From the NCBI RefSeq assembly GCF_023715605.1, contig NZ_JAMBOL010000001.1, positions 62,001 through 126,000 on the forward strand: 64,000 nt of DNA. The letters run 5' to 3'. Of the stretch, positions 22,755 to 34,803 are shown piece after piece; positions within the stretch are counted from its first letter, which is position 1, and every line of letters begins with the position of its first letter. The position numbers were made by a program, and so were the translations under genes. Origin of the DNA: Halalkalibacter oceani (GTDB lineage: Bacteria; Bacillota; Bacilli; Bacillales; Bacillaceae_D). Under the pieces are notes generated by a model. The model was not told the origin of the DNA. It ran no database searches and was given only the letters and a program-made list of their open reading frames with translations.

Positions 22755-23543
22755 ATGACTGAAAGAAAGCCGAAGCTCGAAATTCAAAATCTGTCCGTAA
22801 GGTATCATTCCAAGGAACGAAGCACGCTTGCATTAACAGAGGTCGATTTAACAATTGAGGATGGTCAGTTTGTCGCGGTGGTTGGTCCTAGTGGCTGTGG
22901 GAAATCAACGCTTTTAAAAGTTGTATCAGGTTTGATTAAGCCGGCGGAAGGGAGGGCATTGCTTGATGGCGAGGTAATCGAAGGAATTCCGAACGAGGTT
23001 GGCATGGTGTTTCAAAACGATGCGCTCCTTCCGTGGAAGAGCGTGCTCGACAATGTCAGGCTGCCGTCTGTTGTGAAAAATAAATCACGCGAGGAGCAGG
23101 AAGAGATTGCGAGAAAGTACATTAACATGGTTGGATTAACAGGGTTTGAAGAGTTCTATCCGAAGCAATTGTCCGGGGGGATGAAAAAGCGTGTCGCGCT
23201 TGCCCGCGCTTTTGCTTATGATCCATCACTTTATTTGATGGATGAACCATTTGGTCCGCTTGATGCGCAAACGAGGGTGATCATCGGCGAAGAGTTTTTA
23301 AGAATGTGGGAGCAGGTTGGCAAAAGTGTATTGTTTATTACTCACGACATTGAAGAAGCGATTGCGTTGTCGGATAAAGTTGTTGTGATGTCAAATCGGC
23401 CGGGAAGGATAAGCGCTGAATTTGAGGTTGATATTGAACGGCCCCGACCATTTTATGAAACGCGCTTTGATCCTCGTTTTCAGAGGTTGCAAAAAGAGAT
23501 TTGGGAAGCGTTAGCTGATTCAAAAAAGGAAGTAGGTGTATAA
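22755..23543 (+). CDS. ABC importer ATPase, nitrate/sulfonate/taurine (NitT/TauT) family
   Basis: A 262-aa nucleotide-binding subunit: Walker A GPSGCGKST near residue 44, Q loop MVFQNDALLPW, signature LSGGMKKR, Walker B LYLMDEP and the switch histidine in ITHDIEEA. The LLPWKS sequence after the Q loop is typical of the SsuB/TauB/ThiZ group. It starts the operon (AAAGGAG site, ATG 22755) and overlaps or abuts the permease gene. It powers uptake of the presumed pathway substrate. Confidence 0.9.
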   Translation: MTERKPKLEIQNLSVRYHSKERSTLALTEVDLTIEDGQFVAVVGPSGCGKSTLLKVVSGLIKPAEGRALLDGEVIEGIPNEVGMVFQNDALLPWKSVLDNVRLPSVVKNKSREEQEEIARKYINMVGLTGFEEFYPKQLSGGMKKRVALARAFAYDPSLYLMDEPFGPLDAQTRVIIGEEFLRMWEQVGKSVLFITHDIEEAIALSDKVVVMSNRPGRISAEFEVDIERPRPFYETRFDPRFQRLQKEIWEALADSKKEVGV

Positions 23544-23544
23544 C

Positions 23545-24375
23545 ATGCTGAGCACGGAAGAAAGCAAAGTGAAAATCAGTACGGCCGCAAAGCGTGCGAG
23601 TGTTTCGGCGAACAAGCTTCAAGTTAATCGTGAATCGCTGCTTGTCTGGGGCGGAAGAGTAGCTGTCGGGCTGATCGTTCTGCTCATTTGGGAATTGACG
23701 TCGGGAACATTATTTAATGATTTTTGGATTAGTAAGCCGTCCGCGATCATTGAGCGGATCGTCACGTTGTCAATTTCTGGTGATTTGTGGTTTCATGTCG
23801 GTTTTACGTTGCAGCAGGCGTTGATCGGTTTAATTATCGGGATGGTTTTAGGGACGCTTCTTGGAATTGCGCTTGCTTCAAGCAACTGGATGGATAAATT
23901 GTTATATCCATACATGATGGCGCTGTATAGCTTGCCGCGTGTCGCGTTAGCCCCTTTATTCGTTGTCTGGTTTGGCATCGGGATGTCATCGAAAATCATC
24001 ATGGTCATTGCAATGGTGATCTTCGTCGCCTTTTACAACGCTTATGAAGGAGTGAAAAACATTGATAAAGACCTGCTCGATATGATGAAAACCCATAAAG
24101 CGAAAAAGCGTGAAGTGTTCACATGGGTCATTTTGCCGTCGATTACGGTCTGGCTGTTAACAAGCTTACGGTTAAATATCGGCATGGCGCTCATCGGCGC
24201 GGTGATTGCCGAATTAATCGGCTCCAACCGCGGGCTTGGTTACTATATTACTTACTCTTCGGGTCTGCTTGATATTACAGGGGTGTTTACAGGGCTTGTC
24301 TTGATTATGATTCTTGCTGTGATCTTGGAGCAGCTCATTGTTCAATCTGAAAAAAGATTGTTGAAGTATCGATAA
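23545..24375 (+). CDS. ABC importer permease, NitT/TauT family
   Basis: A 276-aa membrane subunit with about six transmembrane segments. It has the BPD_transp EAA-type loop (AYEGVKNIDKDLLDMMKTHKAKKREVFTWVILPS region), which contacts the ATPase. ATG 23545 begins one base after the ATPase stop; an in-frame GTG at 23536 would overlap the upstream gene by 8 bases and cannot be excluded. SsuC/TauC-like; the substrate is not readable. Confidence 0.88.
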   Translation: MLSTEESKVKISTAAKRASVSANKLQVNRESLLVWGGRVAVGLIVLLIWELTSGTLFNDFWISKPSAIIERIVTLSISGDLWFHVGFTLQQALIGLIIGMVLGTLLGIALASSNWMDKLLYPYMMALYSLPRVALAPLFVVWFGIGMSSKIIMVIAMVIFVAFYNAYEGVKNIDKDLLDMMKTHKAKKREVFTWVILPSITVWLLTSLRLNIGMALIGAVIAELIGSNRGLGYYITYSSGLLDITGVFTGLVLIMILAVILEQLIVQSEKRLLKYR

Positions 24376-24397
24376 TATGAAGCTGGAGGGAAAATCG

Positions 24398-32319: not shown

Positions 32320-34540
32320 ATCACCTCATGCTCATGTTCAAAAGCTAACCGGCGAGACGAGATTTGTCGAAGATATCAGCTTACCTGGCCAGCTGGCAGG
32401 CGGTATTTTACGAAGCCCGCACGCTCATGCGCGAATCGTCAACATAGACACAACGAAAGCTCTGGAAATAGAAGGCGTGCATGCAGTACTGACGGCGGCC
32501 GATGTTCCAAGGCTTGCCTATGGACCGACGAAGTATAAGGACTGGAACATTTTCGCGGAATCGGAGGTACTCTTTATCGGGGATGAAGTCGCGGCTGTCG
32601 CGGCTGACTCAAAAGAGCTCGTTCAAGCCGCCCTGCAGATGATTGATGTGCACTATGAAGGATTGCCGGCCGTTTTCGACGCGGAGGAGGCGCTCTCCCC
32701 TGAAAGTCCGCTGCTTTATCCACAGACGGAGCAGAACCGCCCGATGCATTTACAGCTTGAGCGCGGGGATGTGGAGACGGCTAAAAAGGATGCGGAAATC
32801 GTCCGCGGCGGCCGGTATGTGATTAACCCGATTTACCAGGGGCATCTCGAGCCGATTGCCGCGCTTGCCAGTTGGTCGGAGGAGGAGGGCATAACGCTGT
32901 GGGCCGGTTCCCATATTCCGTATCGGGCCCGTGAAACGTACGCGGCGGCGTTCGGCTTGCCGGAAGACAGAGTCCGGATCATCGTGCCGCCAATCGGAGG
33001 GTCATTTGGCGCGAAATATGTGTTGAAAATGCATATTATCGCAGCCGCTTTGAGTATGGAAGCAAAAAGGCCTGTCAAAATGGTATTCGACCGTAAGGAG
33101 GATATGATCAGCGCTCATCCGCGCGTGCCATTGAAGATGGATGTTGAAATCGGGGCAACAGCGGATGGTAAATTTGTTTATAAAGATGTGGTCGTCTACG
33201 CCAATGCCGGCGCGCGGATTTATTGGAGTCCGAATATTGTCGCCACCGCCTGCACACGTCCTGATGGAATTTACCATTTTAACAATGTCAGAGCTGAAGG
33301 GAACCTCTGCTATACAAACAATAGTCCAACGACATGCATGAGAGGCTTCGGAAACGCGGAAATGCTGTTCGCGGTGGAAAGCATCATCGACGAGATCGCC
33401 GATAGTCTGAAGATCGATCCGGCTGAGCTGCGGCGGATGAATATTGTCCATCAAAATGAGAGAACGGCTCACGGCTATCAGCTCGACAGCTGCAAGCTTG
33501 AAGAATGCATCGATACAGTGAAGAAGATGGCCAATTGGCAAAGACGCGACAGCCTGCCGAAAAATCGCGGTCTCGGTCTGGCCCTCGGCAATCATGTGTC
33601 CGGCTTTCGTGGCATTGATCCAAGATTCGACGGCTCAACGGCGGTTCTTCGCTTGAAAGCAACGGGAGACATCGAGGTCGAAACCGGAGAAATTGACCTC
33701 GGCCAAGGATTGAGCCAAACCTATGCGAAAATTGCCGCGCGTGAATTGGGAATCAGTGATCAGGCGATCATTGTCAAATCGGGAGACACCGCTCGTCACC
33801 CATTTGGAATCGGGACATTGGCATCAAGAAGCACGGTGATGGGAGGCAACGCCGTTCAATTAGCGGCCGCTGAATTCAAGCGAAAGCTGTCTGCCTTTAT
33901 GAAAGAGCTATACGGGACGGAAGGGAAGTGGGATGAACGGTTTATCGTCGTTGGGGAAACCGCACATTCTTTCAAAGAGATTGCCACGCTTTTTCGAATG
34001 AAGAATGCCGGCGAGGAATTGCTCGTTCGCAGCACATATGTCCCAAATACGGAGCTGCCGGACCACACATATTACGGGAATCCGTCGCCTAATTATCCGT
34101 TTGCCGCTCATGTGGCGGAGGTTGAGGTGGATCCTGATACAGGCCGAGTAAAGCTGCTTGGGTACTGGGCGGCACATGATTCCGGGACGATCTTGAACGA
34201 AGTCGGGGCGATCAGTCAGGTGAACGGGGCTGTCGCTCAGGGAATCGGCTGGGTGACGATGGAGGAATTGAAGCTTGAAGAGGGGCGGGTGATGAATCCG
34301 AGCATCATGGATTATCGGATGCCGGGGGCGGCGGATATTCCAGACATACAAGTAAGCTTTATTGAAGGAGAAGACCCGCACGGTCCTTTCGGGGCCAAAT
34401 CTGTTGGGGAGGTCGCGTTAGACCCTGTGCCGGGGGCGATCGCCAATGCAATTGCCCATGCGATAGGAAAACGCGGGTATTCGCTCCCATTCACACCGGA
34501 GAAAGTTTGGACTTTGCTTCATACAGAGGAAAGCAAATAA
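32303..34540 (+). CDS. Molybdenum hydroxylase large (molybdopterin) subunit
   Basis: A 745-aa xanthine-dehydrogenase/CoxL-family catalytic subunit. Motifs: HAHARI at the N-terminus, IGGSFGAK, the MRGFG arginine loop, [13 protein letters not shown], and [12 protein letters not shown] with the expected active-site glutamate. The AYRxAFR-type active-site loop of CO dehydrogenase (with its copper-binding cysteine) is not seen; the loop reads CMRGFGN, so a hydroxylase acting on an N-heterocycle or aldehyde is more likely. GTG 32303 has AAGGAGGAG before it. No XdhC-like maturation factor is present in the operon. Confidence 0.88.
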
Positions 34541-34554
34541 AGAGGAGGTTACAT

Positions 34555-34803
34555 ATGGCTCATTATACGATTGTCGATCAAGAGACTTGCATCGCCTGCG
34601 GTGCCTGTGGCGCGTCCGCTCCTGATATTTATGATTATGACGATGAAGGAATTGCCTATGTCGTGATTGATGAGAATAAAGGAATGAACATCATCGCCGA
34701 AGACTTGATTGACGATGTCATCGATGCGCTGGAAGGCTGTCCGACGGAATCCATTAAAGTCGCGGAACAGCCGTTTGATGGAGACCCTTTAAAATATGAA
34801 TAA
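34555..34803 (+). CDS. fer: Monocluster [4Fe-4S] ferredoxin, Bacillus type
   Basis: An 82-aa acidic ferredoxin. C12, C15 and C18 (CIACGAC) and a single distal C62 bind one [4Fe-4S] cluster, and the second cluster site is lost ([10 protein letters not shown]), as in B. subtilis Fer. It starts 14 bases after the large subunit with site AGAGGAGG, so it is the last gene of the operon and probably the electron donor or acceptor for the flavoprotein/[2Fe-2S] pair or the hydroxylase. Confidence 0.88.

Follow-up and report, generated by a model that had tools for sequence, protein, structure and literature searches.

Degradation of furan-2,5-dicarboxylate to 2-oxoglutarate has been assigned to the UbiD-type decarboxylase HmfF together with HmfABC (PMC12064950). 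Another UbiD enzyme, HudA, decarboxylates pyrrole-2-carboxylate, and H297 of HmfF has been named as key to furan specificity (PMC7976604). The 4,5-dihydroxyphthalate decarboxylase (DHPD) of Comamonas is reported to act on 4-hydroxyphthalate as well (PMC13040137), and the 6-hydroxyquinolinate decarboxylase of Alcaligenes UK21 is described as resembling phthalate decarboxylases, in a review that groups these under UbiD (PMC6644310). Here we analyzed a stretch of 64,000 nucleotides from Halalkalibacter oceani (contig NZ_JAMBOL010000001.1, positions 62,001 to 126,000 of the forward strand; hereafter the window), in which an operon of twelve genes at 22755-34803 brings relatives of such enzymes together. 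The cluster is real and conserved and apparently encodes an undescribed pathway. The reading that we favor, with a little less than even confidence, is catabolism of an N-heteroaromatic polycarboxylate, most likely a pyrrole, feeding glutamate.

A twelve-gene operon had been proposed from the letters of the window (the sequence-only reading), and all twelve open reading frames (ORFs) were found present and intact on the plus strand, with unchanged coordinates. Pfam families were assigned to eleven of the genes (ABC_tran, BPD_transp_1, NMT1, the UbiD N, rift and C domains, LamB_YcsF, FAD_binding_2 with Succ_DH_flav_C, Fer2_3, FAD_binding_5/CO_deh_flav_C, Fer2 with Fer2_2, Ald_Xan_dh_C/MoCoBD and Fer4_13); the exception, gene 9, was placed through the solved DHPD 9JP7. 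With likely starts picked by eye from ribosome-site context (PxpA 27172, Fer2 29677, CoxS 31831, CoxL 32303, ferredoxin 34555), spacing within the operon is -17 to +26 bases, apart from the single gap of 299 bases between UbiD and PxpA, in agreement with the short gaps and overlaps first noticed. The features are listed below, where identities refer to a paralogous second copy in the same genome.

22755..23543, plus strand: ATP-binding cassette (ABC) importer, ATP-binding subunit of the nitrate/sulfonate/taurine type (PF00005, 2.9e-33; 85% identity to second copy)
23536..24375, plus strand: ABC importer permease, likely start 23545 (PF00528, 2.7e-27; 76% to second copy)
24377..25438, plus strand: substrate-binding protein, NMT1/SsuA-like, likely start 24398 (PF13379, 2.7e-14; TIGR01728 70.7 bits, under the cut-off of 163.5)
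25448..26872, plus strand: UbiD decarboxylase, HmfF-like (PF01977, 5e-64; nearest solved structure 6H6V/HmfF, 2.6e-83)
26873..27171, no strand: 299-base gap, position of pxpB-pxpC in the second copy (comparison of both copies)
27172..27966, plus strand: PxpA (LamB/YcsF), 5-oxoprolinase subunit A, ORF open from 27136 (PF03746, 8.4e-100)
27959..29674, plus strand: SdhA/FrdA-related flavoprotein with altered substrate motif, proposed ring (ene-lactam) reductase (PF00890, 2e-62)
29677..29988, plus strand: single [2Fe-2S] SdhB-N-like ferredoxin (Fer2), flavoprotein partner (PF13085, 7.1e-15)
30002..30826, plus strand: CoxM-type FAD subunit of molybdenum hydroxylase (PF00941, 9.5e-48)
30845..31804, plus strand: gene 9, DHPD-like protein (9JP7, E 1.5e-66)
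31831..32319, plus strand: CoxS-type 2x[2Fe-2S] subunit (PF01799, 5.9e-23)
32303..34540, plus strand: CoxL-type molybdopterin subunit (PF02738/PF20256; nearest solved structure 1RM6, 2.9e-106)
34555..34803, plus strand: 4Fe-4S single-cluster ferredoxin, gene 12 (PF13370, 5.1e-19)

Conservation was followed with the flavoprotein in a pattern scan of one genome per species (84,980 species), seeded with two exact peptide patterns (flavoprotein residues 229-235 and 250-256). Of 115 relatives, 80 were kept, and synteny was examined in 42 of these (L010-L051). The counts given here are for the 37 loci with at least 63% flavoprotein identity, which are a sample and of which seven lie near contig ends and are possibly cut (L015, L018, L020, L022, L036, L037 and L038). 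All 37 belong to Bacillota (Bacillaceae, Paenibacillaceae, Alicyclobacillaceae, Sporolactobacillaceae and Caryophanaceae), and the next relatives fall to 35% or less, a drop that may partly reflect the seed patterns, the residues of which are conserved partly by selection. UbiD was identified in 19 loci, all of which also carry the three ABC importer genes, PxpABC, the flavoprotein, Fer2 and gene 9, together with exactly one type of hydroxylase within the cluster, either CoxMSL (11 loci) or a luciferase-like monooxygenase (LLM; 8 loci). Since it recurs in many genomes, the gene set is more than a chance association, and the conservation on which the sequence-only reading depended was thus observed. 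In keeping with its further remark that it knew of no characterized pathway with this exact set, no description of it was recognized in the open-access literature. Gene 9 is present in 24 loci, each time with a hydroxylase, and the 13 loci lacking it have no hydroxylase. PxpABC, flavoprotein and Fer2 are complete in 33 loci (incomplete in L018, L038, L041 and L017, the last consisting of flavoprotein and Fer2 only). Judged by this occurrence, PxpABC, the flavoprotein and Fer2 form the core of the cluster, while UbiD, gene 9 and the hydroxylase are additions. An IclR regulator, scoring best with PcaR/PobR models but below the cut-off, precedes 24 of the 37 loci.

An SsuA-type ABC transporter and an SfnG-like LLM would also suit a composite of separate units, in which genes for 5-oxoproline salvage neighbor sulfur or aromatic genes of no related function instead of forming one pathway with them. 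An unlinked LLM gene in L153 points the same way, as it lies roughly 5 kb away from a gene for a Cys/Met lyase that looks by eye like the one at 36459-37658 of the window. We regard such a composite as improbable, however, as 19 loci from several genera share this set and a hydroxylase always accompanies gene 9 in them.

The 13 minimal loci, which lack UbiD, gene 9 and hydroxylase, have as neighbors of the core a major facilitator superfamily (MFS) transporter of the aromatic-acid type (5 loci), a tripartite ATP-independent periplasmic (TRAP) system (1 locus; DctP and DctM by Pfam) or ycsG (6 loci, five with ycsI and four with PxpABC on the opposite strand); the remaining locus is L017. Completion of minimal clusters by unlinked genes was considered and rejected, as gene 9 was found in none of the 13 genomes at 1e-30 and UbiD of this group in none, with weaker UbiDs in three. 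In the genome of L018, a UbiD of this group is encoded on a different contig. Within the genus, gene 9 at no less than 63% identity was found in two of 13 genomes, including that of the window, and a third has a 35% relative; the cluster is thus patchy. All 37 close loci lie in Bacillota families that include spore formers, a habit for which these families are known, and dipicolinate (pyridine-2,6-dicarboxylate) is shaped like furan-2,5-dicarboxylate. Both points would agree with recycling of dipicolinate from spores, in which UbiD would form picolinate and CoxMSL 6-hydroxypicolinate, followed by reduction and opening. We nevertheless consider this very improbable: gene 9 would be unexplained, the distribution is patchy, and we know of no UbiD chemistry on the alpha carbon of a pyridine.

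The UbiD of the window contains the N, rift and C domains and the R-E-E triad of the family, the residues pointed out earlier (R157, E260 and E265) being invariant in 21 of 21 aligned UbiDs. Among 40 solved sequences it is nearest to HmfF (6H6V, a furan-2,5-dicarboxylate decarboxylase; E 2.6e-83), followed by 7AE4 (5.5e-62), 7PDA (7e-54) and 5NY5 (3,4-dihydroxybenzoate decarboxylase; 2.1e-52), whereas the HudA entries gave 3.8e-37 to 2.9e-36. As it is nearer to HmfF than to HudA, it probably acts on a di- or polycarboxylate, and judged by this comparison UbiD need not yield an unsubstituted ring. R310 and R335 are invariant and align with R304 and R331 of HmfF, which we take to bind the second carboxylate; these two columns are T/K in 5NY5 and T/G in 7AE4. 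The counterpart of H302 is H296 in HmfF, and 5NY5 also has a histidine there. A route along the lines of the sequence-only reading, from pyrrole-2-carboxylate through pyrrole, pyrrolinone and 2-pyrrolidone to 4-aminobutyrate (GABA), would draw on the link of PxpA relatives to lactam use. HudA provides a precedent for its first step (PMC7976604). This route is improbable nonetheless, for the UbiD is nearer to HmfF (2.6e-83) than to HudA, gene 9 would be left without a function, PxpABC has the look of a housekeeping 5-oxoprolinase, and no aminotransferase family recurs beside the clusters.

CoxM, CoxS and CoxL constitute a molybdenum hydroxylase of the xanthine oxidase family, with FAD, a pair of 2Fe-2S and molybdenum cofactor domains on three subunits. 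Among solved structures CoxL is nearest to 1RM6 (2.9e-106), a 4-hydroxybenzoyl-CoA reductase and not a CO dehydrogenase. An enzyme for CO or xanthine, which had been named as one case that would undo the pathway, was rejected: the AYRCSFR loop of aerobic CO dehydrogenase is replaced by CMRGFG, and the scores are far under the cut-offs (332.7 bits against 991.15 for aerobic CO dehydrogenase). The LLM clusters need two changes in the flavoprotein tree. L040 has kept xdhC and mocA beside its LLM gene without CoxMSL and therefore looks like a trace of replacement. A close CoxL is absent from all eight genomes with LLM clusters (best 32%), and an unlinked LLM orthologue (78-82%) is present in two of the 11 genomes with UbiD/CoxMSL loci and in none of the five CoxMSL genomes whose locus lacks UbiD.

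No Pfam or NCBIfam hit was obtained for gene 9 at E 0.001. A profile of 26 gene 9 proteins matches the solved DHPD 9JP7 over its full length (E 1.5e-66) and shares 60 of 98 invariant columns with it, and the DHPD-like label given to this protein from the outset thus denotes true family homology. Alcaligenes degrades quinolinate by means of quinolinate dehydrogenase and 6-hydroxyquinolinate decarboxylase, and the original paper on the latter reportedly means DHPD. By analogy, gene 9 is likely to remove a second carboxylate once the ring has been hydroxylated. Of 193 records with relatives of gene 9 on plasmids, five were examined, and one of the five has an adjacent molybdenum hydroxylase. On a Roseomonas plasmid (L093:5375-8978), genes for 2Fe-2S and molybdopterin subunits lie directly upstream of a DHPD-like gene annotated as an ABC substrate-binding protein, forming a candidate quinolinate cluster. 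Among the matches listed, 22 of 25 DHPD-like hits are annotated as transport, hypothetical or nothing, while H14 and H23 are named decarboxylase.

These relationships would also allow a pyridine as substrate. A quinolinate-like acid would be converted by CoxMSL to the 6-hydroxy acid and by gene 9 to 6-hydroxypicolinate, then to 6-oxopipecolate, which PxpABC would open to 2-aminoadipate, with UbiD removing an additional carboxylate. Hydroxylation adjoining the pyridine nitrogen is typical of molybdenum hydroxylases, the Roseomonas plasmid pairs such an enzyme with a DHPD-like gene, and 6-hydroxypicolinate would suit the five minimal clusters with an aromatic-acid-type MFS transporter; the resemblance of 6-hydroxyquinolinate decarboxylase to phthalate decarboxylases points the same way (PMC6644310). 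We judge a pyridine unlikely, though deserving of attention, as two ring reductions would be required, the HmfF-like UbiD would be without an obvious natural substrate, no aminotransferase family recurs, and the PxpA genes point to 5-oxoproline.

This last argument rests on the distribution of PxpA. The PxpA of the window passes the NF003814 subfamily model (365.9 bits, cut-off 226), and PxpB and PxpC of the second copy pass TIGR00370 and TIGR00724. All three subunits occur together in the second copy and in 19 of 19 UbiD loci, whereas the window copy has PxpA alone, which probably needs the PxpBC encoded in the second copy. PxpA was found in all 40 neighborhood genomes, including that of the window, as a single match in 36. 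In 17 of the 19 full-cluster genomes (assemblies of unstated completeness) the cluster PxpA is the only one found, as it is in 29 of 37 over the genomes of all loci, and the two PxpA genes of the window genome are the two cluster copies. On these grounds the cluster PxpA should act as the housekeeping 5-oxoprolinase. Either this enzyme was taken into the cluster or the cluster enzyme does its job, and the last lactam is likely 5-oxoproline, with glutamate as the end of the pathway. The lactam opening earlier ascribed to PxpA agrees with its family, while the lactam is probably 5-oxoproline itself. Neither labels nor Pfam mark any of the 25 protein families recurring in at least four loci as an aminotransferase or a CoA ligase (Pfam gave nothing for two of these families, one being probably a spurious antisense ORF), which fits glutamate as the product and favors a five-membered ring.

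The flavoprotein has A48, F239 and P258 in 39 of 39 members and D257 in 38. A48, F239 and D257-P258 replace what we take, from the residue roles and numbering of FrdA, to be the flavin-linking His, the HPTG His and the Thr-Glu pair of succinate dehydrogenase/fumarate reductase (SDH/FRD), a departure from that family, while R291, H355 and R389 are retained in all 39. As the dicarboxylate motif of SDH/FRD is lost and these three residues are kept, a substrate with one carboxylate is plausible. In Fer2, C53, C59, C62 and C74 are invariant in 44 aligned sequences. No residue column separates minimal- from full-cluster flavoproteins under the rule used, and their reaction is thus probably the same. 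Five archaeal relatives at about 34% retain the SDH/FRD residues. The archaeal pairs of flavoprotein and Fer2 in L047-L051 (33-35%), which have these residues, are possible relatives of a two-part soluble fumarate reductase.

The second copy lies on another contig of the 4.47 Mb host genome (stretches L006/L007, contig C91). Its proteins share 65-85% (ABC importer), 83% (UbiD), 76% (PxpA), 80% (flavoprotein), 73% (Fer2), 60% (CoxM), 64% (gene 9), 65% (CoxS) and 72% (CoxL) identity with those of the window, or 60-85% over the whole operon. In eight genes third codon positions are 35-48% and second positions 78-93% identical; the copies thus differ mainly at third positions, as expected under purifying selection. 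In addition, the second copy has pxpB and pxpC, which occupy the place of the 299-base gap, and xdhC, mocA and ubiX after CoxL. No PxpB or PxpC remnant was found in the gap (best tblastn E 1.5). Terminator-like hairpins are predicted there, at a frequency near chance regionally (20 against 14.8 expected). A copy of the window type was seen in its own genome only. The second copy is flanked by genes named by eye as rho and thymidine kinase (L006:8298-9159, L007:5981-6132), within a housekeeping run of fba, tal, murA, glpX, rho ... tdk, prfA (also named by eye). We assume this order to be the usual one, and its presence around the copy suggests insertion. A distant cluster on contig C58 (L008:5135-10317, 14586-15689) has homologues of UbiD, CoxS, CoxL and CoxM (30-34% identical) as well as a further UbiD; close by, at C58:412092, lies a gene of the flavoprotein family (UbiX-like).

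Gene content, its conservation, the exchange of hydroxylases from cluster to cluster, the missing SDH/FRD motif and the sole PxpA are computed results, from which we infer the individual reactions, their order and a pyrrole as the ring. The ABC importer would take up the substrate, and the HmfF-like UbiD, with prenylated flavin mononucleotide (prFMN) from a UbiX encoded elsewhere (one in the second copy), would remove one ring carboxylate. CoxMSL, or LLM in its place, would hydroxylate the ring carbon adjoining nitrogen (C5), after which gene 9 would decarboxylate the hydroxylated ring to 5-hydroxypyrrole-2-carboxylate, that is, didehydro-5-oxoproline. The flavoprotein and Fer2 would reduce the ring double bond to give 5-oxoproline, with electrons perhaps from the 4Fe-4S ferredoxin, and PxpA with PxpBC of the second copy would open it with ATP to glutamate. 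The general idea put forward at the start, in which an imported acid is decarboxylated and hydroxylated, its ring reduced and the lactam opened, fits the protein families, but the order of steps given then is probably not supported. Chemical oxidation of eumelanin yields pyrrole-2,3,5-tricarboxylate and pyrrole-2,3-dicarboxylate (PMC7404343; PMC13135606), which fit clusters with and without UbiD, respectively. A more specific and rather doubtful version of the pyrrole pathway is that UbiD removes the 5-carboxylate of the tricarboxylate, C5 of the resulting pyrrole-2,3-dicarboxylate is hydroxylated and gene 9 removes the 3-carboxylate, leading through 5-oxoproline to glutamate; UbiD-less clusters would use the dicarboxylate alone.

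Several points weigh against a pyrrole pathway to glutamate. The usual target of molybdenum hydroxylases is an electron-poor C=N carbon, for which pyridines are the better fit. A pyridine, through 6-hydroxypicolinate, also better explains the 13 minimal clusters, which need a ready-made flavoprotein substrate, though it does not explain the sole PxpA. The LLM protein is nearest to SfnG, and because of the two genomes with an unlinked LLM, the exclusion between CoxMSL and LLM holds for clusters and not for genomes. The window PxpA falls short of the NF003813 equivalog model (367.2 bits, cut-off 392), as does the second-copy PxpC of NF045499 (281 bits, cut-off 500), an additional PxpA is present in two of the 19 full-cluster genomes, and the window copy is without pxpBC, xdhC, mocA and ubiX. 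Finally, the roles of the FrdA residues and of the HmfF arginines are presumed, and the UbiD structure was predicted with a pLDDT of 42.

Downstream of the operon, and convergent with it, lie a sigma-54 regulator on the minus strand (35008-36429) with a weak GAF match and a Cys/Met pyridoxal phosphate (PLP) enzyme (36459-37658). A search of the 44 other sequences at 1e-3 matched neither gene, and both were left outside the unit. Control of the operon by this regulator was rejected, as no -24/-12 match with at most two mismatches was found between 14709 and 23861; the window has 27 such matches, fewer than the shuffle mean of 32. The gene 12 ferredoxin was likewise rejected as a conserved part of the cluster, as tblastn at 1e-3 matched it in neither the second copy nor the 42 loci.

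If the favored pathway is correct, it would be an undescribed route from an N-heteroaromatic acid to glutamate, joining the logic of furan (Hmf) and quinolinate degradation with the cell's own 5-oxoprolinase, and it would set apart a clade among the SdhA-like flavoproteins by its new specificity. Clusters that differ only in having a molybdenum hydroxylase or an LLM offer a natural test of the role of that step. Should the melanin version hold, it would account for the way in which the final soluble pieces of a highly resistant pigment are returned to metabolism.

Compared with the Hmf pathway, the operon shares a UbiD, nearest to HmfF among solved structures, that would be followed by a molybdenum hydroxylase on a five-membered heteroaromatic ring, with a C5 central metabolite as product. 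It differs in that furoyl-CoA synthetase and thioester hydrolase are not among the genes of either copy, and in adding a DHPD-like protein, a flavoprotein/[2Fe-2S] reductase and ATP-dependent lactam opening, with glutamate as the end if the model holds. Quinolinate degradation in Alcaligenes likewise involves hydroxylation adjoining nitrogen and removal of the neighboring carboxylate by a phthalate-decarboxylase-like enzyme (PMC6644310), but the operon adds UbiD, a ring reductase and PxpABC and contains no dioxygenase gene. With the 5-oxoprolinase PxpABC (YcsF/KipI/KipA) it has in common the NF003814, TIGR00370 and TIGR00724 matches and sole-PxpA status in most hosts, whereas here the enzyme stands within a catabolic cluster, misses NF003813 and NF045499, and is reduced to PxpA without PxpBC in the window copy. 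Like SDH/FRD and L-aspartate oxidase, the flavoprotein is of the SdhA type with a catalytic Arg and one carboxylate site, but the operon clade has lost the flavin-linking His, the HPTG His and the TE pair, its partner has one [2Fe-2S] cluster only, and the operon contains no membrane anchor gene. Gene 9, homologous over its full length to the DHPD of the phthalate pathway with 60 of 98 invariant columns in common, differs from it in lying inside a molybdenum hydroxylase operon with no phthalate dioxygenase.

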